A DNA stretch of 64,000 nt from an uncultured Naasia sp. (GTDB taxonomy: Bacteria > Actinomycetota > Actinomycetes > Actinomycetales > Microbacteriaceae), in NCBI GenBank assembly GCA_913778905.1, contig CAJYYA010000009.1, positions 1-64,000 of the forward strand. The letters are read 5' to 3'. The notes beneath the pieces are model-generated. The model worked only from the letters and a program-made list of their open reading frames with translations, did not search any database and was not told where the DNA came from. A program made the translations under genes and the position numbers. Shown piece after piece: positions 2,237 through 20,589 of this stretch. Within the stretch, counting starts at the first letter, position 1, and each line of letters opens with the position of its first letter.

Positions 2237-3149
2237 ACCGACCGTCGGTAAACCGGTATCCGTCCTCGTCGGCGCGGACGACGACGGGCGACGGTTCCTC
2301 AACGGCACCTTCGACGAATTCACCCAGGCGCCCCCACCACACTCCGACACCGGCCCTGCGTTCGTCAGCACCCGAGAGCACCGACGTTTCGTGGAGTTCG
2401 CCGACACCGTACGCTCACACCGGTACATCGGCCTCTGCTACGGTCCACCCGGCATCGGCAAGACCCTCTCCGCCCGCCACTATGCCGGCACCGACGAGTG
2501 GGAACAGTGGTACCCGCTTGCCCGAAACGGTGGCCCGCTCCCTCCCGTCCCCGAGGATGTTCAGCAGAGTCGAACGGCGTTCTTCACCCCCACGGTCGCC
2601 GCAACCATCAAGCAGATCGATCAGGGCCTGCCCCGCGCGTGCCAGCAAATCTCCTGGGCCATCGACTACGCCCAGCATGGCCACGTCGACCCTTACGTCC
2701 ACCCCGAATCCCAACACAGCGGGAACACAGAATTGCTCATCATCGACGAGGCCGACCGTCTCAAGACCGCTGGCCTCGAACAGGTCCGCGACTTCTACGA
2801 CCGCCACCACCTGGGCGTCATCCTCATCGGTATGCCCGGCATCGAAAAACGCCTCGCACGCTACCCCCAGCTCTACAGCCGCATCGGCTTTGCCCACGAA
2901 TACCGCCCCCTCCGCAGCGACGAACTCACCGCCGTTGTCACGCAGCGCCTCCCTGCACTGGATCCCACCGACGCGGGACTAGCTCACTCGGCGGCCCTTG
3001 CCGCCATCGTGCGCGCCACCAACGGGAACTTCCGCCTCGCCGATCGCCTCGTCACTCAGATCCGACGCGTTCTCACCATCAACGGCCATACCCACCTCAC
3101 ACCCGAGGCCGTCGACGCCGCTCTAGAGGCCCTCCTAATCGGACGCTAA
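2223..3149 (+). CDS. TniB/MuB-like AAA+ transposition ATPase
   Basis: A 308-residue ATPase with Walker A GPPGIGKT at residues 74-81 and Walker B LLIIDEAD at 171-178, followed by an arginine-rich helical lid. Proteins of this type (MuB, TniB, Tn552 p271) bind target DNA and activate the partner DDE transposase. The gene overlaps the transposase end by 14 bp, as is usual for the pair, and GAGGACC precedes the ATG. No TniQ-like gene and no cargo follow. The next 200 bp are non-coding and repeat-bearing. Confidence 0.85.
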   Translation: MPATEPTVGKPVSVLVGADDDGRRFLNGTFDEFTQAPPPHSDTGPAFVSTREHRRFVEFADTVRSHRYIGLCYGPPGIGKTLSARHYAGTDEWEQWYPLARNGGPLPPVPEDVQQSRTAFFTPTVAATIKQIDQGLPRACQQISWAIDYAQHGHVDPYVHPESQHSGNTELLIIDEADRLKTAGLEQVRDFYDRHHLGVILIGMPGIEKRLARYPQLYSRIGFAHEYRPLRSDELTAVVTQRLPALDPTDAGLAHSAALAAIVRATNGNFRLADRLVTQIRRVLTINGHTHLTPEAVDAALEALLIGR

Positions 3150-3351: not shown

Positions 3352-4125
3352 TCAGCCGTGCTGGAGGGTGCGGCCCCCGTCGATCACGAGGACCTGACCC
3401 GTCACGAAGGAGGCATCATCGCTCGCGAGGAAGTGATAGCCCGCCGCGATGTCCTCGGGGCGGCCGACGCGGCGGACGGCCTGACGCTGCGACACGTCCG
3501 CGATGCCCGCGGCGCCGAGGGAGTTGACCTCGTCGAGGGTCTGCGGAGTCTGGATGATGCCGGGCGCGATCGCGTTGACCGTGATGCCCGATGGCCCGAG
3601 CTCAGTCGCCAGCGTCCGCACCATCCCCGCGACCCCCGCCTTCGCCGCCGAGTAGTGCGCGTGGTCCACCCACGATTCGATGACGCCGACGGTCGAGGTC
3701 GTGGCGAGCAGACGGCCGCGCCCCGCCTTGCGCATGGGCCCCACGGCGGCGCGGAACGTCCGCCACACGCCGGTCAGGTCGATGTCGATGATCTGCGTCC
3801 AGTCCGCCTCGGTCATCTCGGCCAGTGCGTGCAGACGGGCGATGGCCGCATTCGCGACGACGGCGTCGAGGCGTCCGAAGGCTTGCGTGGCCACTCCCAC
3901 GAGCGCCTCCACGGACTCGGTGTCGCGGACGTCGACCTCGCGCACCTCCACCCGGCGCCCCAGAGCGCGCACATCGGCGACGACCGCGTCCATGTCGTGG
4001 CCGTCGGCGGCGTGGTCGCCGAGCACCAGATCGCTACCGGCCGCGGCGAGGCGGCGGGCGGTGGCGGCCCCGATGCCGGAGGCGGCTCCGGTGATGACCG
4101 TGACGGTCCCGTCGAGAGAGAACAT
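3352..4125 (-). CDS. SDR family NAD(P)-dependent oxidoreductase
   Basis: A 257-residue classical short-chain dehydrogenase. The cofactor motif TGAASGIG is at residues 12-19, VVANAA follows near residue 88, the catalytic YSAAK tetrad is near 155, and VNAIAPG follows it. It ends VIDGG, as is typical. It is the last gene of the leftward operon, 33 bp after a second SDR. The substrate is not predictable. Position next to a nucleoside hydrolase and transporter suggests oxidation of a sugar or of a side chain freed from the imported compound, which is inference. Confidence 0.85.
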   Translation of the reverse strand: MFSLDGTVTVITGAASGIGAATARRLAAAGSDLVLGDHAADGHDMDAVVADVRALGRRVEVREVDVRDTESVEALVGVATQAFGRLDAVVANAAIARLHALAEMTEADWTQIIDIDLTGVWRTFRAAVGPMRKAGRGRLLATTSTVGVIESWVDHAHYSAAKAGVAGMVRTLATELGPSGITVNAIAPGIIQTPQTLDEVNSLGAAGIADVSQRQAVRRVGRPEDIAAGYHFLASDDASFVTGQVLVIDGGRTLQHG

Positions 4126-4158
4126 GCGGATACTCCAGGAGGTCGAGAGGGACGGGGA

Positions 4159-4938
4159 TCAGTACGCGGTCCAGCCGCCGTCGACGGGCAGCAGCGCCCC
4201 CGACACGAAGCGGCAGTCGTCGGAGACGAGGTAGGCGGCGGCCGCCGCGATGTCGTCGGGCACGCCGAGGCGGCCGAAGGGGGTGCGCATCAGCGAGAAC
4301 TCGGTGGCGGCGTCGATGGTGCCGTGGTCGAGGTAGTCGCGCTCCCCCGGGTGGTCGCCCGTGATGATGCGCCCCGGTGCGATGGCGTTGACGAGGATCC
4401 CCTCGCGCCCGTAGTCCACCGCGACCTGGCGGGTCAGCTGGATCACGCCCGCTTTAGCGACCGAGTAGGTCAGTGCCCCGGGCGGGCCGGTGATGCCGAG
4501 CTGAGAGGCCATGTTGACGATGCGGCCACGCACGCCGTCACGCTCCTCCTGCCCGAGCATCACGCGCACGGCGGCGCGAGTCATGACGAACGCGGTGCGG
4601 AGGTTGATGTCGAGGTAGGCGTCCCACTCCTCGTCGGTCGTATCGAGGAGGCTCGAGCCGCCGAAGCGGCCGGCGTTGTTGACGACGGCATCGACTCGCC
4701 CCGTCGGTGCTGCCGCGGCGGTGAAGACTCGCTCGACATCGGCCGACGAGGTCGCATCGGCCTCGATCGCCTCGGCGGACCCGCCCGCCGCACGGACCGC
4801 GTCCACGGTCTCGGTGGAACTGCGGAGATCGACGGCGACGACGTGCGCGCCGTCGGTGGCGAGCCGCAGGGTGATCGCGCGACCGAGTCCGGCCGCGGCG
4901 CCCGTCACGACGATCGAGCGGCCGGCCAGAGCCGTCAC
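4159..4938 (-). CDS. SDR family NAD(P)-dependent oxidoreductase
   Basis: A 259-residue classical SDR beginning at GTG (4938), with TGAAAGLG cofactor motif, VVNNAG, catalytic YSVAK and a C-terminal LPVDGGW. The GTG start overlaps the stop of the nucleoside hydrolase (GTGA, 4935-4938), so translation is probably coupled. A longer reading to 5043 only adds arginine-rich antisense-like sequence and was rejected. It is paralogous to the gene downstream; the two may act on successive hydroxyls or as alternative dehydrogenases. Confidence 0.85.
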   Translation of the reverse strand: MTALAGRSIVVTGAAAGLGRAITLRLATDGAHVVAVDLRSSTETVDAVRAAGGSAEAIEADATSSADVERVFTAAAAPTGRVDAVVNNAGRFGGSSLLDTTDEEWDAYLDINLRTAFVMTRAAVRVMLGQEERDGVRGRIVNMASQLGITGPPGALTYSVAKAGVIQLTRQVAVDYGREGILVNAIAPGRIITGDHPGERDYLDHGTIDAATEFSLMRTPFGRLGVPDDIAAAAAYLVSDDCRFVSGALLPVDGGWTAY

Positions 4939-5909
4939 GCGGTCGCCTTCGTCAGCGACGCGACGAGCGTGTCGGGGAACGTGCCATCGGTCTCGAGCAC
5001 GACGGTGCAGTTGCCGCCCGTGATGCCCGTGAACCCGCGCCATTTGGTGCGCGTGTCGCAGATGGTCGCTCCGCGGCCCGGGCCGTCGGTGCAGTCGACC
5101 ACGACGTCGATTCTCGGTGCAACGAGCGGCACCACGTCACCGGTCAGGACACCGGCGGCGAGCGCGTCGTGGCAGGGCGAGCTGAAACGGCCGTAGGACT
5201 CCCGGCCGAAGTGCTCGAAGTAGAACCCGGTCGCGGCGCCGACGAAGTTGGCGGCCGGTTCGGTCGAGGCGAGCAGCGCGTCACGGTGCGCCTCCGTGAC
5301 GACCTCGCGCATCGTCACGTCGAGCGGCACGAGCGTGGTGGTCCACTCGGCGGAGATGACCTCCTGGGCCGCCTCGGGGTCGTGGATGATGTTCGCCTCC
5401 GCGGCGGCCGACTGATTGCCCGGTCCATCTGCGGCCCCGCCCATGATGACGAGGTCGACGATGCGGTCCGGGAGGTCGGGGTGTTCGCGCAGCGCGTGGG
5501 CGAGGTTGGTCAACGGGGCCAGGGCGAGGATGCGGAGTCGGCCTGCGTATTCGGTGGCGAGATCGTCGATCAGCTGCACCGCGGTGCGCGGATCGGGATC
5601 GGTCTGCACGTCGAGCGGAAGTCCCGCATCGCCGAGCCCGTCGGTGCCGTGGACGTGCAGGGCGAGGTACTCGAGCTCGCTCGCGATCGGCTGCTCCTCG
5701 CCGACGGCGACGGGGATGTCCGTCCGGCCGACGAGCTCGAGGATGCGGAGCGAGTTGACGGCGCACTGCGCGGCCGTGTTGTTGCCGAAGACGGTCGTGA
5801 TGCCGACGACCTCGACGTCGGGGTGGCGCAGCAGGTAGAGCAGGGCCATGGCGTCGTCGATACCGGTGTCGCAGTCGACGAGGACGGGGGTGCGCTCGGC
5901 GGAAGTCAT
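4935..5909 (-). CDS. Nucleoside hydrolase (inosine-uridine hydrolase family)
   Basis: A 324-residue member of the IunH/RihA family, which cleaves N-glycosidic bonds of nucleosides to give ribose and a free base. The calcium-binding DCDTGIDDA motif sits at residues 12-20, and GNNTAAQ and a later MGGAAD segment fit the fold. A His in HDALAAG (around residue 240) matches the C-terminal active-site region. It lies 14 bp after the second ABC permease and overlaps the next SDR by 4 bp. This ties a glycosidase directly to the transporter, so the imported solute is probably a nucleoside or analogue. Confidence 0.88.
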   Translation of the reverse strand: MTSAERTPVLVDCDTGIDDAMALLYLLRHPDVEVVGITTVFGNNTAAQCAVNSLRILELVGRTDIPVAVGEEQPIASELEYLALHVHGTDGLGDAGLPLDVQTDPDPRTAVQLIDDLATEYAGRLRILALAPLTNLAHALREHPDLPDRIVDLVIMGGAADGPGNQSAAAEANIIHDPEAAQEVISAEWTTTLVPLDVTMREVVTEAHRDALLASTEPAANFVGAATGFYFEHFGRESYGRFSSPCHDALAAGVLTGDVVPLVAPRIDVVVDCTDGPGRGATICDTRTKWRGFTGITGGNCTVVLETDGTFPDTLVASLTKATA

Positions 5910-5923
5910 GGTGTCCTCTTCTC

Positions 5924-6868
5924 TCAGCCGCGCGGGATGATCGCGGGCACGTAGTTGGTCTCGGAGACGTCGAATCGCTCACGGCGTCGGCGGCCGATGG
6001 CCTGCACCGCGAGCGCGACGACGGTTGCCACGTAGGGCAGCATGTGCAGCAGCTGAGGCGAGACGGTGCCAGTGCCTTGGATCTGGATTCCGAGCGCGGT
6101 GGCCGCCGCGAACAGCAAGCTCGCGAGCACGGTGCCGAGCGGGGTCGCCCGGCCGAAGATCACCGCGGCGAAGGCGATGAACCCGAGGCCGCCCGTGAGG
6201 TTCGAGTTGAAGGACGCGACCGAGCTGATCGACAGGTAGGCCCCGCCCACGCCGGCGAGCGCGCCGCTCAGCAACAGGGTCGCCGTGCGGATCACGACGG
6301 GCTTGATGCCCACCGCGAGCGCCGCCTCGTCCGACTCGCCGACCGCCTTCACATGCACGCCGAAGCGGGTCCTATTCATCACGACGGCGCCCACGGCGAA
6401 CAGCACGATCGTGATGTAGAGAAGGACGCTCTGCCCGCTGAGTGCGGGACCCAGGATCGGGATGGACTCGAGCGGTCCGAGCGGGATGCGCGGGATGAGC
6501 TGCACTCCGGTCGGCACGTACGTGCCGGTCGACCCGAGGACGTTCGTGACCACAAGCAGGGTGAGGCCCGTGGCGAGGAGGTTCGCCGCGATACCTGCGA
6601 TGAGCAGATCGCTGCGCAGCACGAAGGCGGCGAACGCGAGCAGCGAGGCGTACAGTGCGCCCGCCACGATGCCGGCGATGAGGCCGAGCCAGGGGGTTCC
6701 GGTCGCGGCGGCCACGGCGATCGCCGCGAGGGCGGCGACCAGCATGCAGCCATCGAGGGCGATGTTGGAGGCACGGGCCCGCTCGGCGAACATGCCGCCG
6801 ATGGCGGGGGCGAGGATCGGGATGAGGCTCGCCAGGGTGAGCGCGAGGAAATCGCCGAACACGTTCAC
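5924..6868 (-). CDS. ABC transporter permease (NupQ/YufQ-like)
   Basis: A 314-residue hydrophobic protein with about eight to nine predicted membrane helices, of the branched-chain/ribose-type permease family. Members next to BMP-type binding proteins import nucleosides. The start is GTG at 6868 (VNVFGDFLALTL), overlapping the preceding permease stop as GTGA. The NRTRFGVHVKAVGESDEAA segment near the middle is the conserved cytoplasmic coupling loop. It would pair with the permease encoded upstream to form the channel. Confidence 0.9.
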   Translation of the reverse strand: MNVFGDFLALTLASLIPILAPAIGGMFAERARASNIALDGCMLVAALAAIAVAAATGTPWLGLIAGIVAGALYASLLAFAAFVLRSDLLIAGIAANLLATGLTLLVVTNVLGSTGTYVPTGVQLIPRIPLGPLESIPILGPALSGQSVLLYITIVLFAVGAVVMNRTRFGVHVKAVGESDEAALAVGIKPVVIRTATLLLSGALAGVGGAYLSISSVASFNSNLTGGLGFIAFAAVIFGRATPLGTVLASLLFAAATALGIQIQGTGTVSPQLLHMLPYVATVVALAVQAIGRRRRERFDVSETNYVPAIIPRG

Positions 6869-7971
6869 GATCCGCTCCGTCCGAGGCGCTGGCTGGTGAT
6901 GAGCAGGATGAGCACTCCCTGGAGCACGAAGACGAGGGAGAAGGGCACGTTCGACGAGGCCTGCATGGCCGTCGCCCCTGTCATGAGCGAGGCGTAGAGC
7001 GCCGCGGCGACGAGGATGCCCAAGGGGCGCAATCGACCGATCAGAGCGACGGTGATCCCGAGGAATCCGTACTGCGGCGAGAACCCGGAGATGTAGGAGT
7101 GAGTGATGCCGAGTACGGCGACGCCGCCCGCGAGTCCCGCGAGTCCACCGCTGACGGCGAGCGAGACGAAGAGGTAGCGACCCGACTTGACGCCGAGATA
7201 CTCGGCGAAGGCCGGCTGCAGGCCCGCTGCCTCCATCCGCATGCCCGTGCGGGTGCGGTCGAAGAAGATCCAGGCGAGGACGGCGATGACGACGACCAGG
7301 AAGACGCCGACGTTGGCGGGCGAGGGCGGCGGCAGGATGCGGGCCAGCCAGACGCTCTCGTCGAGGGGCGGCGTCTCGACTGCGCCCGAGTCGGGGTCGC
7401 GGAAGAAGTCGGTGACGAGGAAGAGGGCCAGATCGGCGGCGATGTAGTTGAACATCAGCGTCGTCAGGATCTCGTTGGTCCGGAACTTCACGCGGAGGAC
7501 CGCGGGGACCGCGATCCACAGTGCTCCCGTCACGGTCGCCGCCACGAGAGCCAGGATCTGAGCGCCGATACCCTGCACGCCCGCATTGCCGGCCACGACG
7601 GCGGCCGCGAGACCGCCGAGCACCAGCTGACCCTCGGCTCCGATGTTGAACGCACCGGCCCGGAACCCGACCGCCGCGGCGAGCGCCGTGAGCACCAGCA
7701 CCGTCGCGATGGCGATCATGCTGCCGATCGAGTACGGGTTGCGGAACGTACCGAACACGAAGGACCCGAAAGCTTCGAGCGGATTCTCCGCGACGAAGAG
7801 CATGATGACGAAGCAGACGACGACGCCCAGCACGACCGCGATGACGGACTGGCTGAGCCCCAGCGGGACGACACGGCGCGCGGCGGTGAACCAGTTCGTG
7901 CGCGGCGGTATCTGCTCGGAGGTGACCGGCGCGTCGTTGTGCGCGTCGGTGGGGGGCGGGGCTTGTGTCAC
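6865..7971 (-). CDS. ABC transporter permease (NupP/YufP-like)
   Basis: A 368-residue membrane protein with a cytoplasmic N-terminus and about nine to ten hydrophobic helices. FRAGAFNIGAEGQLVLGG and the loop DRTRTGMRMEAAGLQPAFAE are typical of nucleoside/simple-sugar ABC permeases. The GTG start (7969-7971) overlaps the ATPase stop by four bases and its own stop overlaps the next permease start in the same way. The three transport proteins are therefore translationally coupled. Confidence 0.9.
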   Translation of the reverse strand: MTQAPPPTDAHNDAPVTSEQIPPRTNWFTAARRVVPLGLSQSVIAVVLGVVVCFVIMLFVAENPLEAFGSFVFGTFRNPYSIGSMIAIATVLVLTALAAAVGFRAGAFNIGAEGQLVLGGLAAAVVAGNAGVQGIGAQILALVAATVTGALWIAVPAVLRVKFRTNEILTTLMFNYIAADLALFLVTDFFRDPDSGAVETPPLDESVWLARILPPPSPANVGVFLVVVIAVLAWIFFDRTRTGMRMEAAGLQPAFAEYLGVKSGRYLFVSLAVSGGLAGLAGGVAVLGITHSYISGFSPQYGFLGITVALIGRLRPLGILVAAALYASLMTGATAMQASSNVPFSLVFVLQGVLILLITSQRLGRSGS

Positions 7972-9473
7972 TTCTTGCCTTCCAGCATCGCGCGGCCGAC
8001 CTCGGCCTCGGTGGGGCGTCTGCCCGAATACTCGGCGACGATGCGACCGGCCGACATCACGAGCACGCGGTCGGCGATCTGCGTGACCTCCTCGATCTCA
8101 CTGGAGACGAGGAGCACGGCTCCCCCGGCGTCGCGCCGGGTGACGAGTTCGTTGCGTACGAAGGCGGTGGCGGCGATGTCGAGGCCGCGCGTGGGTTCGG
8201 CGCAGACGACGACTCCGGCGTCCTTCGAGAGCTCGCGGGCGAGCACCATCTTCTGCGCGTTTCCGCCGGAGAGGCGCTTGGCGAGCTGACGGGGTGAGGA
8301 CGCGCGCACGTCGAAGCGCCCCATGAGCGCCGTGGCGAGCCCCCCGATCCGTCTGCGTGAGAGGAAGCGGTCGGACCCGAGCGCGTCGTCGAGCCGCCCC
8401 ACGGCGATGTTGTCGGCGACGGACCAGTAGCCGGCCATGCCGCGGCCGATGCGGTCCTCGGGGATGTGAACGAGTCCGGCGGCGCGGACGGCGGCGGGGC
8501 TGCCGCCCGTCACGTCCGTCCCGGCGACCGAGACCGTGCCGCCGACGACGGCGCGGAGACCGGTGATGCCCTCGACGAGCTCGGTCTGGCCGTTCCCGGC
8601 GATGCCGAGGACCCCGACGATCTCGCCGGAGCGCACCTCGAGGCTGACGCCGTCGACGACGTCGAGTCCGCGGGCGCTGCGCAGACGCAGGTCGTCGACC
8701 TTGAGGCGCACCTCGCCGGGTGTGCCCATCTCGACGGTGCTGGGGGCGAAGTCGTCATTGCCCGTGATGAGGGCGGCGAGATCGGCGTTGGTCACCTCGT
8801 CGATGCGGTTCGCGGCGACCCGCTTGCCGCGCCGCAGCACCGTCACGCGGTCGGCGATGCGCCGCACCTCGCTGAGGTGGTGGCTGATGAGCACGACCGC
8901 GAGGCCGCTGGCCGCGAAGCCCCGGACGACCTCGAAGAAGCGCTCGGTTTCGGCGGGCGTCAGCACAGCGGTCGGCTCGTCGAGCACGAGGATGCGCACG
9001 TCCTTCGCGAGGGCCCGCAGGATCTCGACGCGCTGCTGGGCGCCGACCGAGAGCGAGCGCACCTTGTCGCGCGGCTTGACCTCGAGGCCGTACTCGGCGC
9101 TCAACCGTTCGACGGTGCGGATCTGCTCCGCCTCCTTCACGAACGGCCCCGCGTGAGCCTCGGTGCCGAGGAACACGTTCTCGGCGACCGTGAGGGAGGG
9201 AACCAATTTGAAGTGCTGGTGAACCATTCCGATACCCAGCGCGAGCGCCCGCTTCGGGGAGGTGACCTCGACGGCCTCGCCGTCGAGCTCGATGACCCCC
9301 TCGTCCGGGCGGATGAGCCCGAACAGGCAGTTCATGAGAGTGGATTTGCCCGCCCCGTTCTCCCCGAGGAGGGCGTGCACCTCTCCGGCATTGATCTCGA
9401 GGTCGACATGGTCGACCGCGGTCATGGTGCCGAAGCGCTTGACGATGTCGCGCATCTTGAGCGGCGGTTGCAC
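7968..9473 (-). CDS. ABC transporter ATP-binding protein (NupO/YufO-like)
   Basis: A 501-residue tandem ATPase with two nucleotide-binding domains. The first has Walker A GENGAGKS at residues 37-44, signature LSVGAQQR and Walker B ILVLDEPT. The second has a degenerate Walker A (GIAGNGQTE), signature LSGGNAQK and VVCAEPTRGLD, the usual asymmetry of sugar/nucleoside importers. It follows the binding-protein gene by 54 bp and precedes two permeases. Confidence 0.92.
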   Translation of the reverse strand: MQPPLKMRDIVKRFGTMTAVDHVDLEINAGEVHALLGENGAGKSTLMNCLFGLIRPDEGVIELDGEAVEVTSPKRALALGIGMVHQHFKLVPSLTVAENVFLGTEAHAGPFVKEAEQIRTVERLSAEYGLEVKPRDKVRSLSVGAQQRVEILRALAKDVRILVLDEPTAVLTPAETERFFEVVRGFAASGLAVVLISHHLSEVRRIADRVTVLRRGKRVAANRIDEVTNADLAALITGNDDFAPSTVEMGTPGEVRLKVDDLRLRSARGLDVVDGVSLEVRSGEIVGVLGIAGNGQTELVEGITGLRAVVGGTVSVAGTDVTGGSPAAVRAAGLVHIPEDRIGRGMAGYWSVADNIAVGRLDDALGSDRFLSRRRIGGLATALMGRFDVRASSPRQLAKRLSGGNAQKMVLARELSKDAGVVVCAEPTRGLDIAATAFVRNELVTRRDAGGAVLLVSSEIEEVTQIADRVLVMSAGRIVAEYSGRRPTEAEVGRAMLEGKK

Positions 9474-9527
9474 ACTTCCTCCAACGGATTCGAACGGGGC
9501 GGGCGGGTTCTGCAGAGAGGAACGGGC

Positions 9528-10568
9528 TCAGAGAGCCGTGTCCACCTTGATCTGGCCGTCGATGACCTGCTTCTTCAGGGCGTCGATCTGATCCTGGTAC
9601 TTCGCGGGGACGAGGTCGTCGTTGAACGCGATGCCGACACCGTCGTTCGCGATGTTCCCGGACGTGGTGGTGCCGAGCTCGAGCGTCCCATCCAGGTACT
9701 GCTGAATGCCCGTGTAGACGGTGTTGCCGACCGACTTGATGGCGCTGGCAGGAGTCGACTCGGGGTGGATGCCGTTCTGATTCGAGTCGGTGCCGATGGC
9801 GTAACGCCCCGCGTCCGCACCTGCCTGGAGCACGCCGAGACCGGCAGCACCCGCGACCTGGTAGACGACGTCGGCGCCGTCGTTGTACATCGCCGTGGTG
9901 ATGTCGTAGGCGCCCTGGGCGCTTTCGAAGTCGCCGACGAAACGGATGTCGACGGTGATGTTCGGCGAGACGGCCTTGGCGCCCTGCTCGTAGCCGACCG
10001 CGAAGTCGCGGATGACCGGGATGTCCAGTCCTCCGACGAGACCGATGCGGTTCGATCCCTTCGATCGGGGGAAGTCCGTGGGGTTGGTGCTGATCGCGGC
10101 CGCGAGCGCACCGACGAGGAATGCGCCCTCGTTCTGGGCGTAGGAGATCCCGGTCACGTTCGGACCGACCGAAGGCGAGTCGAAGATCAGGTACTTCTGG
10201 TCGGGGAACTGCTTGGCGACCTTCTCGAGCGTGGAGGCCATGACCGTCCCGCCCGTGACGATGAGCTGGTTGGAACCGCTCGCCGAGGCCTCGGTGAGGT
10301 TGCGCTCCCAGGCCGGGGCATCATCCGCTCCGGCCTCGATGACGGCCACCTTGACACCGAGGTCGGCGGCCGCGCGCTGCAGACCGTCGTTCGCGGAATC
10401 CATGAAGCTCTGGTCACCCAGCTGCCCGCTCAGGGGTGCGGAGATGTTGACCTCCCCAGAGGCTCCGGAGGATCCCCCGGAGGGCGTGGATCCGCCGGAG
10501 CAGCCGGCGAGGAGGAGGGACGAGCTCAGGACGAGGGCGGCGCCCGCGAGCCAGGCTGACTTCTTCAT
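9528..10568 (-). CDS. BMP-family substrate-binding lipoprotein
   Basis: A 346-residue exported lipoprotein: basic MKK start, hydrophobic core and lipobox LLAGC with Cys23 as lipidation site, then a Ser/Gly linker. The mature part matches the BmpA/PnrA (Med) family, whose members bind purine and pyrimidine nucleosides. DSPSVGPNVTGISYAQNEGAFLVG and IGLVGGLDIPVIRDFAVGYEQGA are characteristic blocks. Together with the downstream ATPase and permeases it forms a complete importer. Confidence 0.9.
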   Translation of the reverse strand: MKKSAWLAGAALVLSSSLLLAGCSGGSTPSGGSSGASGEVNISAPLSGQLGDQSFMDSANDGLQRAAADLGVKVAVIEAGADDAPAWERNLTEASASGSNQLIVTGGTVMASTLEKVAKQFPDQKYLIFDSPSVGPNVTGISYAQNEGAFLVGALAAAISTNPTDFPRSKGSNRIGLVGGLDIPVIRDFAVGYEQGAKAVSPNITVDIRFVGDFESAQGAYDITTAMYNDGADVVYQVAGAAGLGVLQAGADAGRYAIGTDSNQNGIHPESTPASAIKSVGNTVYTGIQQYLDGTLELGTTTSGNIANDGVGIAFNDDLVPAKYQDQIDALKKQVIDGQIKVDTAL

Positions 10569-10637
10569 GGTGTGCGTCTCTTTCGTTTCGGTGTGCAGGG
10601 GATGGTGCTGTGCGGTGCAGACCGGCTGTGGCCGGGG

Positions 10638-11477
10638 TCAGGAATCGCCGTTGACGGGAAGCACGTCGGCGTGGAAGTCATCGACGAGGCGCGCGATACC
10701 CGCGGCGTCCTCGATGTGCATGTAGTGCTTGAGCTGAGGGACGACGACGAAGCGGGAGTCGGGAATGCGAGCAGCGAGTTGCCCGGACATCGCCGGGGTC
10801 GACCCCAGGTCTCGCTCACCCGTCGCGATCAGGGTCGGAACCTCGACCTCGCCCGCGCGCTCCAGCTGGTCCGTCTCGACGAGCACCTCGTAAGCAGCGG
10901 CGTAGGCGGAGTGGTCGACGTGCGACACGATGGCCAGTTCAGCCTCGACGAGTTCCGGATGCTCGGCGCGGAAGACGTCCGTGAACCAGCGCTCCCCGCT
11001 CGCCGGCGCGAGCTCGGCGGGCGGTGTGGACCGGATGAGAGCGAGGCGGGTGCGGGCGCGATCGAGCTCGGCGGGTGTACGCCCCGCGATCGAGTTGAGG
11101 AGGACCAGGGACGCGACCCGCTCGGGCTCGGCGAGCGCGAAGGCGAGACCGATGACAGCACCGATCGAGAAGCCGACGATGCTGACGCGCTCGATCCCGA
11201 GCTCGTCGAGAAGGCGGACGAGATCCTCGACGAAGTCGCCGACGACGTACGGCCCGGCTGGAGCGTCCGAGGCACCGTGACCCCGGTAGTCGGGCATCAG
11301 GTAGCGCCTGCCCGGGGACAACCGGGGCACGAGTTCGGCCCATGTGTCGGCGGAACTCCCCACTCCGTGCAGCAGCACCACGACGGGTCCGCCGGACGCG
11401 CCGGCCTCGGCGTAGGCGAGACGGGGTGTCGAGTCGGAGAGCTGTCGCGGAGCGAGGAACCGTGGCGTCTGTTGCAT
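10638..11477 (-). CDS. Alpha/beta hydrolase, first gene of the leftward operon
   Basis: A 279-residue alpha/beta hydrolase. The oxyanion motif is LLHGVGSSADTW, the nucleophile elbow GFSIG carries the catalytic Ser, and the His is in QLKHYMHIED. The family includes PcaD lactonases and RutD-like aminoacrylate hydrolases. The ATG at 11477 was chosen because a consensus promoter (11488-11516) ends just upstream, leaving a very short or absent leader. A longer reading to 11618 would run through that promoter. It probably hydrolyses a lactone, ester or amide in the pathway of this locus; the substrate is unknown. Confidence 0.85.
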   Translation of the reverse strand: MQQTPRFLAPRQLSDSTPRLAYAEAGASGGPVVVLLHGVGSSADTWAELVPRLSPGRRYLMPDYRGHGASDAPAGPYVVGDFVEDLVRLLDELGIERVSIVGFSIGAVIGLAFALAEPERVASLVLLNSIAGRTPAELDRARTRLALIRSTPPAELAPASGERWFTDVFRAEHPELVEAELAIVSHVDHSAYAAAYEVLVETDQLERAGEVEVPTLIATGERDLGSTPAMSGQLAARIPDSRFVVVPQLKHYMHIEDAAGIARLVDDFHADVLPVNGDS

Positions 11478-11487
11478 GGTAGCGACG

Positions 11488-11516
11488 AGTATTGACACCC
11501 CCCGTTGTGATGTCAA
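11488..11516 (-). promoter_or_regulatory. Promoter of the leftward hydrolase-transporter operon
   Basis: On the minus strand TTGACA (11511-11516) is followed after exactly 17 bp by AATACT (11488-11493), about ten bases before the hydrolase ATG. The -35 hexamer and a TGTCAA copy at 11492-11497 (minus strand) form a TTGACA...TGTCAA inverted repeat that spans the promoter and could serve as an additional operator. Confidence 0.6.
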
Positions 11517-11580
11517 CACCCCAGCTTTTGCGATTTCGAAACTGCAACATCCCCGTAACACAGGGCGATAGAGATCGTTA

Positions 11581-11590
11581 CTTGCATGCC
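11581..11590. promoter_or_regulatory. Partial GntR operator, upstream copy
   Basis: CTTGCATGCC matches nine bases of the palindrome CTTGCATGCAAG found at 11634. The dyad centres are 53 bp apart, about five helical turns. This copy lies upstream of the -35 of the regulator promoter and between the two divergent promoters, so a looping or dual-control role is plausible. Confidence 0.5.
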
Positions 11591-11602
11591 AGTGCGTTGC
11601 CG

Positions 11603-11631
11603 TTGACAGCATCCTCACCGCGCCATATGTT
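11603..11631 (+). promoter_or_regulatory. Promoter of the GntR-DUF1185-hydrolase operon
   Basis: TTGACA at 11603-11608, a 17-bp spacer and TATGTT at 11626-11631 form a near-consensus housekeeping promoter. Transcription would start near 11638, inside the CTTGCATGCAAG palindrome, which is a classic repressor position. Confidence 0.7.
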
Positions 11632-11633
11632 CA

Positions 11634-11645
11634 CTTGCATGCAAG
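11634..11645. promoter_or_regulatory. GntR operator CTTGCATGCAAG overlapping the transcription start
   Basis: A perfect 12-bp palindrome directly after the -10 box and just before the AGAGG ribosome binding site (11644-11648) of the GntR gene. FCD-type GntR repressors bind short palindromes of this kind, so autorepression is likely, relieved by a pathway metabolite. Confidence 0.6.
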
Positions 11646-11653
11646 AGGACGTG

Positions 11654-12328
11654 ATGCTCGAGGCGCAGAGCATGCAGCTCATGGTGGCCGACCGACTCCG
11701 CGCTCGGATCATCGCGGGCGACCTCGAAACGGGCGTCGGACTCTCGGAGATCGCTCTCGCCGCCGAATACGGGGTGAGTCGCACCCCCGTCCGCGAAGCC
11801 CTCAAGCAGCTGCAGACCGAAGGGCTCGTCGAGATCCGACCCCGGGTCGGCACCTTCGTCTCGACTCCGACCCGCGCGGACATCGTGGAGCTCTTCCAGA
11901 TGAAGGAGATCCTGGAGGGCGCCGCGGCTCGACTCTTCGCCGCGCGAGGCGAGATCCCGGAGCTCGAGGCCCTCCGCCGCAACCTCGAGACATCCGACGA
12001 GGCCGTCGCCCGGGGCGATGTCGCCGGCTACGCGGCCCAGGTCGGCGACTTCCACGACCTGATCGTGCGTGGGTCCGGCAATCGCAAGCTGGTGACGCAC
12101 TACACGATGCTCATGAACCAGCTCGCCTACCCCCGCCTCGTCGCGACCTCGCTCTCCCGCCCCGGTCGACTCGGGGAGAGCGACGCCGAACACGGCCGCG
12201 TCCTCGCGATGATCGTGGCCAAAGACGAGTGGACCGCCGAGCGGCTCATGCGCGAGCACGTGCGCGCCAGCCAGGAGGCGCTCCTCGGAGCCATGGTCTT
12301 CGCCGGCGACGCGGACGCGCGGTCATGA
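11654..12328 (+). CDS. FadR/FCD-family GntR transcriptional regulator
   Basis: A 224-residue regulator: N-terminal winged helix with LSEIALAAEYGVSRTPVREALKQLQTEGLVEI, then an FCD helical ligand domain in which FHDLI and DAEHGRVLAMI and REHV supply the usual metal/ligand-binding Asp and His residues. The ATG at 11654 (or GTG at 11651) was preferred over an ATG at 11639 because AGAGG lies at proper distance and the earlier ATG sits inside the operator. Members of this group typically repress catabolic operons and respond to small carboxylates. It probably controls both divergent operons. The stop overlaps the next start (ATGA). Confidence 0.9.
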   Translation: MLEAQSMQLMVADRLRARIIAGDLETGVGLSEIALAAEYGVSRTPVREALKQLQTEGLVEIRPRVGTFVSTPTRADIVELFQMKEILEGAAARLFAARGEIPELEALRRNLETSDEAVARGDVAGYAAQVGDFHDLIVRGSGNRKLVTHYTMLMNQLAYPRLVATSLSRPGRLGESDAEHGRVLAMIVAKDEWTAERLMREHVRASQEALLGAMVFAGDADARS

Positions 12329-12903
12329 CGACGCCGCGCGTCATCTGTGTGACCCGCGAGGAGGTCCTCTCCGACGCGGGTCGATCGACGGAACAAGCGC
12401 TCGTGCGCGTCGCCGTGGCTGCGGCGATCAGAAACCCGTGGGTGGGCCGCGACGTCGACGACCTGACGACCGAGGTGCGCGTGTTGGCACCTCCCCTCGC
12501 GCAGACGATGATGCGCCGGGCGCTCGACGCGCTCGGCGGGCCCGTCGAGGCGTTCGGTAAGGCCGTCGTCGTCGGTCTCGCCGGGGAGACTGAGCACGGC
12601 GATGCGCTCGTGCACAATCCGTTCTTCTCGAACGTGGTCCGTCTCGGGGCCGCGGGCACCTCGGTCATCGCGTCCACCGAGACGCGGGGCCCCGCCGGGA
12701 CCTCCCTGGCCGTGCCTCTGTGCCACGTCACCGCCGCGAGTACCCGCTCGCATTATCAAGGTATGGCCGTCCGAGTCCCGGATGCTCCCCATGACGACGA
12801 GATCCTGGTCGTCGTCGCCCTCGCGGGCGGCGGCCGACTGCATTCCCGCATCGGCGACCGCACGACGGATCCCGACTTCGACCCGACTCCCTGGAGACCG
12901 TGA
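12325..12903 (+). CDS. DUF1185 ('amino acid synthesis') family protein, first paralogue
   Basis: A 192-residue soluble protein starting at the ATG that overlaps the GntR stop. It shares blocks with its neighbour: AAIRNPW, EAFGKAVVVGLAGETEHG, LVHN, STRSHYQGMAVRVPDAPHDDEI and ALAGGGRLHSR. This pattern is that of the DUF1185 family (BB2672-like fold), whose biochemical role I do not know; the Pfam name 'amino acid synthesis' is not evidence. Conserved Lys (GKA), Glu-His and C-terminal Gly-Gly-Arg-x-His residues look like an active site. Context suggests a hydrolase or isomerase step on a cyclic amide, as inference. Confidence 0.75.
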   Translation: MTTPRVICVTREEVLSDAGRSTEQALVRVAVAAAIRNPWVGRDVDDLTTEVRVLAPPLAQTMMRRALDALGGPVEAFGKAVVVGLAGETEHGDALVHNPFFSNVVRLGAAGTSVIASTETRGPAGTSLAVPLCHVTAASTRSHYQGMAVRVPDAPHDDEILVVVALAGGGRLHSRIGDRTTDPDFDPTPWRP

Positions 12904-12906
12904 CCC

Positions 12907-13458
12907 ATGCACCTGCGATCCATCGTGACCGACGTCTACGAGACACTCGTCGAGGGCGGCGAACCGCTCGACACCCCGCTACGCGTGGCTGTCGTCTCGG
13001 CCGTGATCCGCAACCCGTGGGCGGGCGAAGGCTTCGTCGCCGACCTGAACCCGGGCATCGCCGCGACCGCCCCCGAACTCGGCCGTCTGCTCGCGCCGCG
13101 TGTCGTCGAGGCCCTCGGCGCACCGGCCGAGGCCTACGGCAAAGCGGCGATCGTCGGACTCGACGGCGACATCGAGCACGGATCCGGGCTGATCCACACC
13201 CTCGACTTCGGCGACCACCTGCGCACCCTCATCGGCGCCACGACCCTCCTCCCGGCCGTCGAGAAGCGGGCCCACGCGGGCGCGACGTTCGACATCCCGA
13301 TGAAACACATCACCGATCAGACGACCCGGTCGCATCACCAGAGCGTGGAGGTCCGCCTCGCCGATGCGCCCCACCCGGACGAGATCGTCGTCTCTCTCGC
13401 CCTGTCGTCGGGTGGACGCCCGCACGCCCGACTCACCCCCTACGCACCCCGCCCCTGA
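12907..13458 (+). CDS. DUF1185 family protein, second paralogue
   Basis: A 183-residue paralogue of the preceding gene, starting three bases after its stop. It has the full-length N-terminus ([18 protein letters not shown]), then [57 protein letters not shown] and [11 protein letters not shown]. The first copy has a diverged N-terminus (TREEVLSDAG) and an extra acidic tail. Tandem, translationally adjacent paralogues suggest a heteromeric complex. The family role is unknown. Confidence 0.78.
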
Positions 13459-13504
13459 CCACCCCTCATCCGACCAGATCGCGCAGAGTAAGGAAGCATC
13501 AGAT

Positions 13505-14422
13505 ATGACCAAGGACATCAAAGTCAGCTTCGGCGTGGACGTCGACGCCGTCGCCGGATGGCTCGGCTCCTACGGCGGTGAGGACAGCCTGCAGGACATC
13601 CAGCGCGGCCTCTTCGCCGGCGAGATCGGCATCCCCCGCCTGGTCAAGATGTTCGGCCGCTACGACGTGAAGGCGACCTTCTTCACGCCCGGCCACTCGA
13701 TCGAGACCTTCCCCGAGGCGATGAAGATGGTCGTCGACGCGGGCCATGAGATCGGCGCGCACGGCTACTCGCATGAGAACCCCCGCGACATGTCGCCGCA
13801 GCAGGAGCGCGACGTGCTCGCCCGCTCCATCGAGCTGATCGAGGAGCTCTCCGGCTCGCGCCCGACCGGGTACATCGCCCCCTGGGGCGAGATGACCACG
13901 ATCACCGCCGACCTGCTGCTCGAGGCGGGATTCACCTACGACCGCACCCAGGTGCTGCACGACTTCCAGCCCTTCTACGCGCGCACCGGTGACAGCTGGA
14001 CGAAGATCGATTACACGAAGACCGCCGCCGAATGGATGAAGCCGGTCGTGCGCGGAACCGAGATCCCGCTCGTCAGCCTCGCGTTCAACTGGTACCTCGA
14101 CGACCTGCCGCCGATGATGTTCGTCAAGAGCTCGCCCAACAGCTACGGGTTCGCCAACCCGCGCGACATCGAGCAGCTGTGGAAGGACCAGTTCGACTGG
14201 GTCTACCGCGAGTACGACTACGCGTCGTTCCCGATCTGCATCCACCCCGACGTATCGGGGCGCCCGCAGGTGCTCCTCATGCTCGAGCGCCTCATCGAGT
14301 ACATGCTCGGCCACGACGGCGTGACCATCGAGACCTGCGACGCCATCGTCGAGGACTTCCGTCGCCGCTACCCGTTCGACGAGGCGCCCAAGTACCCGTT
14401 CGACCGCGAATTCCGCGCCTGA
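13505..14422 (+). CDS. Polysaccharide-deacetylase-fold metal hydrolase (HpPgdA/PuuE/cyclic-imidase type)
   Basis: A 305-residue NodB-fold protein without signal peptide. Metal ligands are readable: Asp12/Asp14 in SFGVDVDAV, then His86 and His90 in AHGYSHEN, the spacing seen in Helicobacter HpPgdA. A C-terminal [11 protein letters not shown] block supplies the catalytic His. This cytoplasmic branch also contains PuuE allantoinases and metal-dependent cyclic imide hydrolases, so ring opening of a cyclic ureide or imide fits better here than sugar deacetylation. AAGGAAG precedes the ATG at 13505. It lies between DUF1185 genes and an asparaginase-family gene. Confidence 0.8.
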
Positions 14423-14436
14423 CGCCCGGGCCCGCC

Positions 14437-15456
14437 GTGTCCCCCACTCGAGCACCCGCCGTACCTCCGCGAATAGTCGTGCTCGCGCTCGGCGGGACGA
14501 TCGGTGCGCCCGTCGACGCGGCAGGGTCGAACTCGACCCTGCGCGTCGACGCGGCGGACCTCGTGGCGACGCTGGGCATCGGCGCGGAGACGGTTCGCCT
14601 GGAGCCCGAGACCTTCCGCCGGGTCATGTCGGCCGATATCGGCTGGGACGATGTCACCGCGCTGGCCGAACGGATCCGCTCGCTGTCTCGCGACGGAGTC
14701 GACGGGGTAGTGGTGACGCAGGGCACCGACACCCTCGAGGAATCCGCGTTCCTCCTCGACCTCCTCCTCGACGTGGCGATCCCGGTCGTCGTCACCGGCG
14801 CCATGCGGAACCCCGGGCGCGCGGGAGCCGACGGCCCCGCCAACCTGGCGGACGCCATCCGCGTGGCGTGCTCCGCGGAAGCCGTCTCGGCCGGCGTCCT
14901 CGTCGTGATGGCGGGCAGCATCCACCGCGCGCGGACTGTGCAGAAGACCCATACCTCGTCACTCGGAGCGTTCGCCTCCCACGCCGCGGGACCGGTCGGA
15001 TCGGTCACCGAGAGTCGCGTGCATCTTCGTTGGTCGAGCGCGTCACGCGCACCGACCTGGACGCCGACGAGCTCGGCTGCCCCCCGGGTGACACTTCTAC
15101 GACTGTCGCTCGGGGACGACCCCGCCGTGATCGACGCCGTCACCGGGCTGGACCCGGACGGACTCGTCGTCGAGGTCTACGGAGCAGGCCACGTCGGGGC
15201 GCGCTGCGTCGAAGCTCTCTCGCGCGCCGCCGACCGGATGCCGGTGGTCTTCTGCTCCCGGACCGGAGCCGGGGCTCTCTACCGGACGACAGGTGACTAT
15301 CCGGGATCCGAGGGTGACCTCCTGCGCCGGGGCCTCATCCCCGCGGACCACCTCGATGGCCTGAAGGCACGCCTTCTCCTCATGGCGGTCCTCGCCTCCG
15401 GGGTTAGGGACCGCGTCCGCATCGCGGCGGCCTTCGACGACATCGCCTCGACTTGA
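14437..15456 (+). CDS. Asparaginase/glutaminase family amidohydrolase
   Basis: A 339-residue protein from GTG 14437. The first catalytic threonine is in LGGTIGAP (Thr21) and the second motif is VVTQGTDTLEESAF (Thr97-Asp98), followed by VTGAMRNPGRAGADGPANL, all diagnostic of the L-asparaginase family. The glycine after GGTI replaces the usual alanine. No signal peptide, hence cytoplasmic. As last gene of the rightward operon, 14 bp after the ring-opening hydrolase, it probably hydrolyses the amide produced by that step rather than asparagine itself; this is inference. Confidence 0.82.
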   Translation: MSPTRAPAVPPRIVVLALGGTIGAPVDAAGSNSTLRVDAADLVATLGIGAETVRLEPETFRRVMSADIGWDDVTALAERIRSLSRDGVDGVVVTQGTDTLEESAFLLDLLLDVAIPVVVTGAMRNPGRAGADGPANLADAIRVACSAEAVSAGVLVVMAGSIHRARTVQKTHTSSLGAFASHAAGPVGSVTESRVHLRWSSASRAPTWTPTSSAAPRVTLLRLSLGDDPAVIDAVTGLDPDGLVVEVYGAGHVGARCVEALSRAADRMPVVFCSRTGAGALYRTTGDYPGSEGDLLRRGLIPADHLDGLKARLLLMAVLASGVRDRVRIAAAFDDIAST

Positions 15457-15611: not shown

Positions 15612-16400
15612 TCAGGAGCAGGTGCCGGTACGGGCCAGCGCGTCGGAGTCGACGCTGAGATCCTGAGCCGAGATCCGGACGACTGCATCCGTGCCACGGA
15701 GTTCGACGGAGTCGAGCTTCACCTGCTCGGGCAGATACTGGGCCACGCACACGGAGAGGCCGTCCGGCACGATGAGATTGAGCAGTTCGATGCCGTCGAG
15801 CTGGACGAGACCGGCCTGCACCGACGCCGTCTCCGGTCGGAAGACGATCGATCCCGCATCGACGGCCGGCTTCGCGGTGACTGCCAGGGTGATGTCCTGA
15901 CCCAGCACGGAAGTCGTCGTCGAGTAGGCCAGAGCTCCGTCGCCGATGGAGACGTCGCCCGGGACGCCCTGAGCTGCGATGAGACCGGCAACGGTGGCAC
16001 CCGGAACGGTGACCTCCCCCTGGGCGCTCCCGATCGTGCCCGCGATCCGAGTCCCATCGATCGGCACTCCGGCGAGAGCCGCGTCGGCTCGGACGGGCAG
16101 GCCGGCGACGGTCAGGTTCGTCGAGCTCAGTCGGACATCGTCGAACCGGCCCGCCGCGTACTGCTGCAGGAACGAGATCCCACCGATCCGGACATCGATG
16201 TCACCCTCGACCCCCTCCGGCAGCTGCTTCTCGATACCCGCCGCCACCTGCTCCTGCGCGTAGGCGCGGATGGCCATATCGGCGACGATCGCGGCCGCGA
16301 CGAGCAGGAAGAGAATGATCGCGGCGACCAACCACCGGCGCCCGGTGTGCTTTCGGCGCGGCGGCTCGGAGGGCAGGCGCTCCCCTTCGGGGAGGCTCAC
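15612..16400 (-). CDS. LmeA-like (DUF2993) phospholipid-binding protein
   Basis: A 262-residue protein starting at GTG 16400, which overlaps the argS stop (GTGA). A basic N-terminus is followed by one membrane helix (residues 24-42) and an extracytoplasmic domain with repeated '[38 protein letters not shown]' type strands, the DUF2993/LmeA pattern. Characterised mycobacterial LmeA binds phosphoinositides and aids lipomannan maturation. Here a role in envelope lipoglycan metabolism is plausible. The protein ends RTGTCS. Confidence 0.7.
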
Positions 16401-18073
16401 ATCCGCTCCGGAGCACTGACGCCGAGGAGTCCGAGTCCGCTGCGGAGCACCTGGGCGACCGCGTCGTTGAGCCACAGTCGCGTGTTGTGCACGGCCGTCA
16501 CCGGATCGTCGCCCTGCGGGATCACGCGGCAGTTGTCGTACCAGCGGTGGTACGAACCGGCCAGCTCCTCGAGGTAGCGGGCGACACGGTGCGGCTCGCG
16601 CAGCTCCGACGCCTGCGCCAGGATGCGCGGGAACTCCTGCAGGACGCCGAGCAGGATCGACTCGGTCTCGTGCTCGAGCAGCTCGGGCGCGAACACCGCC
16701 TCACCGCCCACCTCGCGGGCGACCCCGGAGGCGGCGGCATTGCGACCGACCGCCTGGGTGCGAGCGTGGGCGTACTGCACGTAGTAGACGGGGTTGTCGT
16801 TGCTGCGCTTGGTCAGCAGATCCAGGTCGATGTCGACCTGCGAGTCCGTGGACGAGCGGACGAGCGAGTATCGGGCCGCGTCCACGCCCACGGCGTCGAC
16901 GAGGTCCTCCATGGTGACGACGGTGCCGGCACGCTTGCTCATCCGGACCGGAACGCCGTCCTTCACGAGGTTGACCAGTTGGCCGATCAGGATCTCGAGG
17001 TTGACCCACGGGGTATCGCCGAACGCGGCGACGGCTGCCATCAAACGACCGATATAGCCGTGATGGTCGGCGCCCAGCATGATCAGGTTGCGCTCGAAAC
17101 CGCGCTCGCGCTTGTCGAGGTAATAGGCGAGGTCGCCTGCGATGTAGGCCGCGTCGCCGTCGCTTTTGATGACGACGCGGTCGCGGTCGTCGCCGAAGTC
17201 GGACGTGCGCAGCCAGATCGCACCGTCCTTCTCGTAGATGTGGCCCTGCTCGCGGAGGCGAGCGACAGCGCGCTCGACAGCGCCGCTGTCATGAAGGTGG
17301 TTCTCGTGGAAGTAGACGTCGAAGTCGACGCCGAACTCGTGCAGCTGCGCGCGGATATCGCCGAACATCAGCTCGACTCCGACGGCACGGAAGACCTCTT
17401 GTGCCTCATCGCGCGGAAGCGAGGACAGATCGCCCGGATAGTCCGCGACGACGCGCGCCGTGATGTCGGTGATGTACCCGCCGGCATAGCCGTCTTCCGG
17501 CGTCGGTACTCCGAGGAACGAGGCGAGGAGGCTGCGCGAGAAGCGGTCGATCTGCGCGCCGTGATCGTTGAAGTAGTACTCGCGCGTCACATCCGCACCC
17601 TGCGCCTGCAGGATGCGGGCGAGGCTGTCTCCGACGGCGGCCCAGCGGGTGCCACCCAGGTGGATGGGGCCGGTGGGGTTGGCTGAGACGAATTCGAGGT
17701 TCATCTTCACGCCGGCGAGAGCGTCGCCACGGCCGAAGGCGCCCTGCTCGTCGACGATGCGCTTCGCGAGCGCACCCGCCGCCGCGGCGTCGAGCGTGAT
17801 GTTGATGAAGCCGGGGCCCGCGATGTCGACAGCGCGGACGCCGTCGATGGCGAGGAGCGACTCCTGCAGCTCCGCCGCGAGGTCGCGGGGTGCGACGCCG
17901 AGACGCTTGCCGAACCGCATCGCCACGTTGCTCGCCCAGTCGCCGTGCTCCCGGTTGCGGGGACGCTCGAGGGCCACGTCGCTCGAGGTGGGGCGGATGT
18001 CGTCGACGCCGCGTCGGACGGCAGCGTCGGTGATGAGGCGGGCTACGGCGTCGGCGAGATCAGCGGGAGTCAC
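16397..18073 (-). CDS. argS: Arginyl-tRNA synthetase
   Basis: A 558-residue class I synthetase: N-terminal additional domain, HIGH-like motif [11 protein letters not shown] (HLGG at 138-141), KMSKS-like [15 protein letters not shown], and a helical DALR anticodon-binding C-terminus with HRWYDNCRV and [10 protein letters not shown] at the end. Full length. It charges tRNA-Arg, one gene for which lies about 2.4 kb to the right. The stop overlaps the start of the LmeA-like gene. Confidence 0.96.
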
Positions 18074-18882: not shown

Positions 18883-18883
18883 A

Positions 18884-20583: not shown

Positions 20584-20589
20584 CCGATG

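Follow-up and report, generated by a model that had tools for sequence, protein, structure and literature searches.

The window analysed here is a 64,000-nucleotide stretch of contig CAJYYA010000009.1 from an uncultured Naasia sp., whose genome comprises 3.2 Mb in 23 contigs. Between positions 3352 and 15456 it carries 13 genes in two divergent arms, with the gene for an FCD-domain GntR regulator at the centre (Table 1). From the centre outward, the minus arm encodes a PcaD-like hydrolase, a BMP-type binding lipoprotein, an ABC ATPase, permeases 1 and 2, a nucleoside hydrolase (NH) and two short-chain dehydrogenases, SDR2 and SDR1. The plus arm encodes the regulator, the DUF1185 paralogues a and b, a cyclic-imidase-type hydrolase (hereafter the imidase) and an asparaginase-family amidase. 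The gene families and end points named in the initial annotation are correct, and every named family scores above its Pfam cut-off. The GTGA overlaps that it saw coupling importer, NH and SDRs are present in part: four-base overlaps join SDR2 to NH, permease 2 to permease 1 and permease 1 to the ATPase, whereas gaps separate NH from permease 2 (14 nt), SDR1 from SDR2 (33 nt) and the ATPase from the binding protein (54 nt). A gap of 69 nt lies between the binding protein and the hydrolase. In the plus arm, GntR/DUF1185a and imidase/asparaginase overlap by four bases, with gaps of 3 nt between the DUF1185 genes and 46 nt before the imidase. The arrangement is not a matter of chance, as the gene order is retained in relatives.

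Table 1. Genes and regulatory features of the divergent locus in the window.
Feature	Position	Strand	Evidence or remark
SDR1, short-chain dehydrogenase	3352..4125	-	Pfam adh_short_C2
SDR2, short-chain dehydrogenase	4159..4938	-	Pfam; present in 5/5 system loci
Nucleoside hydrolase (NH)	4935..5909	-	IU_nuc_hydro PF01156, 267 bits
ABC permease 2	5924..6868	-	BPD_transp_2
ABC permease 1	6865..7971	-	BPD_transp_2
ABC ATPase, two ABC stretches	7968..9473	-	Pfam
BMP/PnrA-type binding lipoprotein	9528..10568	-	PF02608 (Bmp), 186 bits; PDB matches are BMP-type binding proteins
Alpha/beta hydrolase, PcaD-like, under PcaD cut-off	10638..11477	-	Pfam, NCBIfam
Shared divergent regulatory region	11478..11638	.	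TTGACA in both directions, 5/5 genomes
TTGCATGC box, candidate GntR operator half	11582..11589	+	
Palindrome CTTGCATGCAAG, candidate operator spanning GntR start codon	11634..11645	.	
GntR regulator with FCD domain	11639..12328	+	Pfam; start picked by comparison with relatives
DUF1185 (PF06684, AA_synth) paralogue a	12325..12903	+	Pfam
DUF1185 (PF06684, AA_synth) paralogue b	12907..13458	+	Pfam
Cyclic-imidase-type (HpPgdA/HxnM) hydrolase	13505..14422	+	Polysacc_deac_1; 3qbu match
Asparaginase-family amidase	14419..15456	+	Pfam asparaginase N and C domains; start uncertain, 14419 or 14479

The two arms travel together. They are adjacent in five genomes of three genera: the window, two further members of its genus (L047 and L048) and two other genera (L066/L162 in genome G034, and L173 in G391, which is the same contig as L072). 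L047 and L048 hold all 13 genes in the same order at the same site beside argS-lmeA, and the other two genera hold the same families at other genomic sites. There, the importer arm includes a single DUF1185 gene, flanked by NH and SDR2, and imidase-asparaginase follows directly after GntR; in the window, L047 and L048 the DUF1185 genes lie in the non-importer arm. Among nine genomes of the window's genus, the BMP binding protein occurs in three, the imidase in the same three, and both are missing from the same six. All six cassette-less genomes retain an empty site, in which lmeA (by argS) is followed directly by the far-side flanking gene of L047 and L048; one of them (L247) has an extra open reading frame between argS and lmeA. 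Across Microbacteriaceae, imidases at least 79% identical to that of the window were found in 6 of 398 genomes and have the importer arm adjacent in five. The contig of the sixth (G413) begins within the imidase, leaving only imidase and asparaginase visible. Given this joint presence and absence and the empty sites, the cassette looks to have been gained or lost whole. The initial annotation had treated the two arms as one locus, a view that separate inheritance in relatives would have refuted; the arms stay together there, so it withstands this check. The locus is, by its gene content, a predicted single catabolic cassette, co-inherited with its own GntR regulator.

The divergent region carries candidate control elements. 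A TTGACA box at 11603-11608 (+) faces the GntR-side arm, and TGTCAA at 11511-11516 reads TTGACA for the minus arm; both are found in 5/5 genomes. Palindromic TTGCATGC-like boxes also occur here, one of them over the GntR start codon and exact in 2/5 genomes: the palindrome CTTGCATGCAAG is exact in the window and L047 and degenerate in L048, L066 and L173. By motif match, the TTGACA boxes are putative promoters and the palindromic boxes a putative operator.

The importer set is complete, with consecutive genes for the Bmp lipoprotein, a double ATPase and two BPD_transp_2 permeases, and by gene content it is a BMP/Nup-type nucleoside importer with predicted nucleoside binding. Its nearest NCBIfam models are named 'putative B6 ABC transporter', and the scores stay under their cut-offs (binding protein 48.6, cut-off 400). 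Known BMP/Nup nucleoside importers with an NH have the same importer-plus-NH arm; unlike them, the window joins this arm to ring-opening enzymes with which it is inherited. A BMP profile run on 396 genomes of the phylum matched in eight at E<=1e-60, its own genome included. The other seven matches (L155-L161) have binding proteins 36-43% identical to the window's, lie with importer genes and have an NH in the stretch in four cases; no imidase, enamidase or DUF1185 match was found in these seven stretches, two of which are on 4-5 kb contigs.

The NH matches PF01156 over nearly its full length. Its N-terminal DxDxGxDD and C-terminal HD motifs, whose roles we assume, are invariant in four relatives. 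Four NCBIfam models of characterised classes (RihA, UriH, RihC and ribosylpyrimidine nucleosidase) match it, all below cut-off, and the nearest is the pyrimidine nucleosidase RihA (172.3 bits, cut-off 433). Relatives were gathered by an NH-profile scan with one genome per species, keeping the best 80 of 362 relatives (588 stretches) and viewing the layouts of L067-L099. The NH tree has 84 rows, being 79 of these 80 loci plus five, as L067 is the same locus as L047. Here and below, trees are quick trees with SH-aLRT as the sole support measure, and the importer comparison uses sequence identity. One NH relative (L068) had seemed to neighbour a nicotinate phosphoribosyltransferase, which was wrong: the neighbour is GatB.

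The deacetylase-fold gene of the plus arm aligns with Helicobacter pylori HpPgdA (3qbu) over residues 1-290 of 305 (E=1.5e-133) and retains its GVD and HGYSHENP motifs, whose roles we likewise take as given. By this full-length similarity it is an HpPgdA/HxnM-type cyclic imidase, with predicted hydrolysis of cyclic imides. It also resembles the structure of the allantoinase PuuE (3cl6), scoring 88 bits on TIGR03212 against a cut-off of 424.6. The other enzymes stay under the cut-offs of specific models as well: the asparaginase, whose Pfam domains pass, reaches 175.5 bits of 314.3 for type II (TIGR00520), the alpha/beta hydrolase 169.8 of 255.85 for PcaD enol-lactonase (TIGR02427), and SDR1 and SDR2 score 181.8 and 158.8 on the pyridoxal dehydrogenase model (cut-off 325).

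Imidases occur in 27 Microbacteriaceae genomes, in 21 of them at 59-65% identity. The neighbourhoods examined were those of the five system loci, G413 and 11 of the 21 others. Seven of these 11 (L206, L207, L208, L210, L212, L213, L214) read asparaginase - imidase - MFS transporter - SDR - SDR, six of the seven with a divergent LacI-like regulator; regulator and MFS family were searched on L206, and the other loci were labelled by BLAST to representatives. No NH, BMP or DUF1185 was found in the fetched stretch of any of the 11. SDR1 is the sister of the first SDR of the other imidase loci (SH-aLRT 98), and SDR2 does not group with their second. Because SDR1 groups in this way and these loci have neither NH nor BMP, SDR1, imidase and asparaginase make a putative portable core, to which importer, NH, DUF1185 and PcaD-like hydrolase would be additions for the substrate of the window locus.

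A clue to that substrate comes from enamidase loci. One of the best 80 NH loci, L074 of Microtetraspora fusca, combines an IclR-type regulator, DUF1185, a BMP importer, NH, SDR, a VOC-isochorismatase fusion and an amidohydrolase. Identity to the window is 61% for the binding protein, 61% for the ATPase, 56-59% for the permeases and 55% for the NH. Its amidohydrolase is an enamidase match, aligning over its length with PDB 2vun (E=1.8e-122), the sole PDB sequence at 1e-10. Enamidase converts 6-oxo-1,4,5,6-tetrahydronicotinate to ammonia and 2-formylglutarate, according to the relevant passages of PMC7356986 and PMC9304392. A second such locus, L167 (9883-19839), lies in a genome of the window's genus that also carries the main locus (G002). 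It holds DUF1185, isochorismatase, enamidase, NH, SDR, a family III CoA-transferase, a glutaryl-CoA dehydrogenase (3swo, E=1.8e-156) and, in addition, an ABC importer whose binding protein is of the Peripla_BP_4 family. What recurs is a set of NH, SDR, amidase, ring-opening hydrolase and DUF1185, in which the window has imidase (ring opening) and asparaginase (amidase) where L074 and L167 have enamidase and isochorismatase. Altogether 17 enamidase loci were examined, 5 from Microbacteriaceae and 12 from the order of M. fusca; DUF1185 is in the fetched stretch of 14, the three without it being L183, L240 and L241. Since a closely related importer and NH arm stands beside an enamidase, a nicotinamide-type ring is indicated rather than a ureide or hydantoin. 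Chemical reasoning makes 6-oxo-tetrahydronicotinamide a vinylogous imide, so that an imidase could plausibly take the place of enamidase. If the nicotinamide-type reading is right, the comparison suggests that imidase with asparaginase and enamidase with isochorismatase can replace each other. Enamidase-DUF1185 pairs also occur in L232-L239, from the order of Microtetraspora, adjoined in some (L234) by an HpaB-like oxygenase, a flavin reductase and a xanthine-dehydrogenase-like subunit and in others (L232) by ferredoxin- and FAD-reductase-like genes (judged by eye); these contexts perhaps reflect several pyridine-ring breakdown routes.

DUF1185 turns up repeatedly next to enamidase, vitamin B6-degradation and trigonelline-like genes. 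It has solved structures and a guessed link to amino-acid metabolism, as outlined in part of PMC2954203. Its homologue TgnF, of the Acinetobacter baylyi trigonelline (tgn) pathway, stimulates succinic semialdehyde oxidation, an effect not seen for HcdD (sections of PMC7913881). The window proteins pass the PF06684 cut-off and have the fold of 3byq, and DUF1185a finds matches in 44 of 398 Microbacteriaceae genomes (E<=0.001). The fetched DUF1185 loci include 15 trigonelline-like, 9 vitamin B6-degradation and 4 enamidase loci, the remainder being imidase loci and a few others. The 15 trigonelline-like loci (L049-L063) carry GntR, a DUF1185 pair and an alpha/beta hydrolase, with aldehyde dehydrogenase in 15/15 and LLM monooxygenase in 13/15; their label rests on TgnF together with what we take to be the remaining tgn enzymes. 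A BCCT or cytosine/purine-type permease accompanies 13 of the 15 (by BLAST to L050/L053), and L054 and L058 have ABC genes. At the nine B6-degradation loci DUF1185 stands beside a flavin oxygenase. In one of them, L064, the SDR scores above the NCBIfam cut-off for pyridoxal 4-dehydrogenase and the lactonase above that for 4-pyridoxolactonase; the other eight were labelled by BLAST to L064.

A DUF1185 tree of 64 of the 65 rows (L072 being dropped because it shares its contig with L173) splits into two sides, each with SH-aLRT 99. One holds the enamidase and B6 genes and the single genes of L066 and L173; the other unites the window-type pair with the trigonelline-like pairs. On this two-sided tree, imidase loci with otherwise shared genes draw on both sides of the family for their DUF1185 slot. 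What links these contexts would be 2-formyl-dicarboxylates or their enamines, with 2-formylglutarate and presumably 2-formylsuccinate among them. Further afield, L174 has a DUF1185 gene (10013-10528) on a long branch beside nitrilase-like genes (judged by eye).

The reading we favour, at a little short of even confidence, is that the locus breaks down an N-riboside whose six-membered ring is of the nicotinamide type and already partly reduced, by import, N-glycosidic cleavage, SDR oxidation, ring opening and deamidation. The BMP ABC system would import the riboside and NH would release ribose and the base. SDR1, perhaps with SDR2, would then oxidise a ring hydroxyl to a lactam or cyclic vinylogous imide, the imidase would open the ring, and the asparaginase-like enzyme would remove the amide. 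The 2-formyl-dicarboxylate so formed, or its enamine, would be processed by the DUF1185 pair and the PcaD-like hydrolase in the direction of glutarate or a comparable acid. The closest precedent for the middle steps is the hxn system of Aspergillus nidulans, where, in the portions of PMC9304392 on this route, the SDR HxnW (6-hydroxy to 6-oxo), the HpPgdA-related imidase HxnM and then the amidase HxnN act on a nicotinate-derived ring. On this reading, both systems would share an SDR that yields a cyclic imide, a cyclic imidase related to HpPgdA that opens the ring and an amidase that frees nitrogen. However, hxn starts from free nicotinate via hydroxylases, HxnN is FAAH-like whereas the window amidase is asparaginase-like, and the word 'nucleoside' is absent from the text of PMC9304392. 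The second precedent is the enamidase branch of nicotinate degradation in Eubacterium barkeri, in which, according to PMC7356986 and PMC9304392, ring opening of a reduced nicotinate yields a 2-formyl dicarboxylate. Its likeness lies in the enamidase homologues that stand with the closely related importer and NH of L074; it differs in that the window has imidase and asparaginase for enamidase and isochorismatase, with putative entry as a riboside. For the rest of the E. barkeri pathway the comparison follows what we take to be its course.

The most specific candidate would be the riboside of 6-hydroxy- or 6-oxo-1,4,5,6-tetrahydronicotinamide, derived from hydrated NAD(P)H. Such a riboside is a guess from chemistry, in which the ring hydroxyl would suit the SDR, the N-ribose the NH, the carboxamide the amidase, and the product an enamidase-like opening. 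A pathway dedicated to this hydrated or oxidised NAD(P)H riboside, with DUF1185 acting generally on 2-formyl-dicarboxylates (or enamines) and with single and paired DUF1185 interchangeable, is a speculative extension that we hold to be rather unlikely. To our knowledge, this damaged cofactor figures only as something that cells repair. The order of import, N-glycosidic cleavage, cyclic-amide opening and deamidation, put forward in the initial annotation, agrees with the gene families. Its wide choice of substrates (modified nucleoside, ureide, hydantoin or cyclic imide) narrows through the enamidase context towards a candidate nicotinamide-type riboside, ureide and hydantoin not being favoured. 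Its remark that no described pathway has exactly this gene set is not contradicted by searches of open-licence PMC papers, which turned up no description of this combination of enzyme families.

Several observations weigh against the nicotinamide-type riboside. An NH lies in the fetched stretch of only 2 of the 17 enamidase loci, which leaves the bridge from riboside to enamidase thin. A close glutaryl-CoA dehydrogenase is found at just one of the 17 (L167). L181 has distant homologues of this dehydrogenase and of the CoA-transferase, and the window genome's own homologue, 63% identical and encoded elsewhere in the genome, says little. No enamidase match was found in the window genome (G000) at E<=1e-40. 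Imidase and enamidase are different families and may have different substrates. The NH tree makes the solitary NH of L075 the partner of the M. fusca enzyme, and the system's own clade holds six solitary NHs, at least two beside housekeeping genes (one gatB, one holA), so the NH may be a general, unspecific nucleosidase. With seven of the 11 other imidase loci arranged without NH, BMP or DUF1185, the imidase-asparaginase-SDR core does not itself imply a riboside. In the DUF1185 tree, the window's pair belongs with the trigonelline-like genes and apart from those of the enamidase loci. According to PMC9304392, enamidase both opens the ring and deaminates, so that no obvious enamine is left for DUF1185 at the enamidase loci. 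Finally, this reading explains neither why two SDRs and two DUF1185s should be needed nor what SDR2, the PcaD-like hydrolase and the second DUF1185 do.

The alternative that survives best keeps the same enzymes in the same order and changes the ring: the base would be a cyclic imide or hydroxylactam unrelated to nicotinamide, taken up as its riboside or another N-glycoside. PMC9304392 describes small cyclic imides as substrates of this imidase family, and the SDR1-imidase-asparaginase set recurs with an MFS importer and without NH. We nonetheless think it improbable, as the closely related importer and NH stand with an enamidase in L074 and DUF1185 accompanies enamidase at most of the loci examined.

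Less probable still is a pyrimidine- or ureide-type nucleoside, such as dihydrouridine or a hydantoin, whose base would be opened by a PuuE- or dihydropyrimidinase-like reaction. The affinity of the NH to RihA and the resemblance of the imidase to PuuE speak for it, but both fall well below the respective cut-offs, no carbamoylase or ureidase family was found among the 13 genes by Pfam, and the enamidase link of L074 points elsewhere. The ureide or hydantoin route was set aside on the unmet cut-offs and the enamidase context.

It is very unlikely that the locus serves a glycosylated or N-substituted pyridine through a pathway of the vitamin B6 or trigonelline type. This reading draws on the presence of DUF1185 in B6-degradation and trigonelline-like loci and on the B6 labels of the importer's nearest models. 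L064 shares with the window a BMP-type importer, DUF1185, an alpha/beta hydrolase and an SDR; from tgn the window shares the TgnF family, and the 15 similar actinobacterial loci share GntR, the DUF1185 pair and the alpha/beta hydrolase (the TgnF assignment being from part of PMC7913881). Yet the window locus has none of the pyridine-specific oxygenase, lactonase and decarboxylase genes of L064, and neither LLM monooxygenase, flavin reductase nor aldehyde dehydrogenase of tgn. No flavin oxygenase, LLM monooxygenase or lactonase family, no flavin reductase and no metallo-beta-lactamase family was found among its 13 genes, both SDRs stay under the pyridoxal dehydrogenase cut-off, and the B6 transporter models score far below theirs. 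Neither route as such was retained, its pathway-specific enzymes being missing. Beyond TgnF, the tgn steps compared are those we presume for A. baylyi. That two separate modules, nucleoside salvage and a cyclic-imide pathway (imidase, asparaginase, DUF1185), merely adjoin each other is just as improbable, for although relatives of the NH occur alone and the imidase-asparaginase core occurs without NH, the set is jointly present or absent in the nine congeneric genomes, recurs at other sites in two other genera with DUF1185 in the importer arm, and shares a putative divergent promoter region in 5/5.

About 200 bases past the end of SDR1 lies a transposon-like set (225-3149) of genes for a serine resolvase, a transposase (rve and Mu-transpos_C) and an AAA ATPase, which we take to be Tn402/Tn5053-like. 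The contig starts at this set, which places the far-side flanking gene of the other species outside the window. On the other flank (15612-20585) are an lmeA-like gene, argS and tRNA-Arg(ccg); within the window's genus the cassette consistently adjoins argS-lmeA, and the imidase-MFS locus L210 of another genus is likewise close to argS.

If the favoured reading is right, the cassette would provide a new nutrient route for pyridine nucleosides and would represent bacterial use of NAD(P)H-damage products. It would also open DUF1185, whose structures are solved and whose function is unsettled, to testing as an enzyme or helper, with 2-formylglutarate, 2-formylsuccinate and their enamines as candidate substrates.

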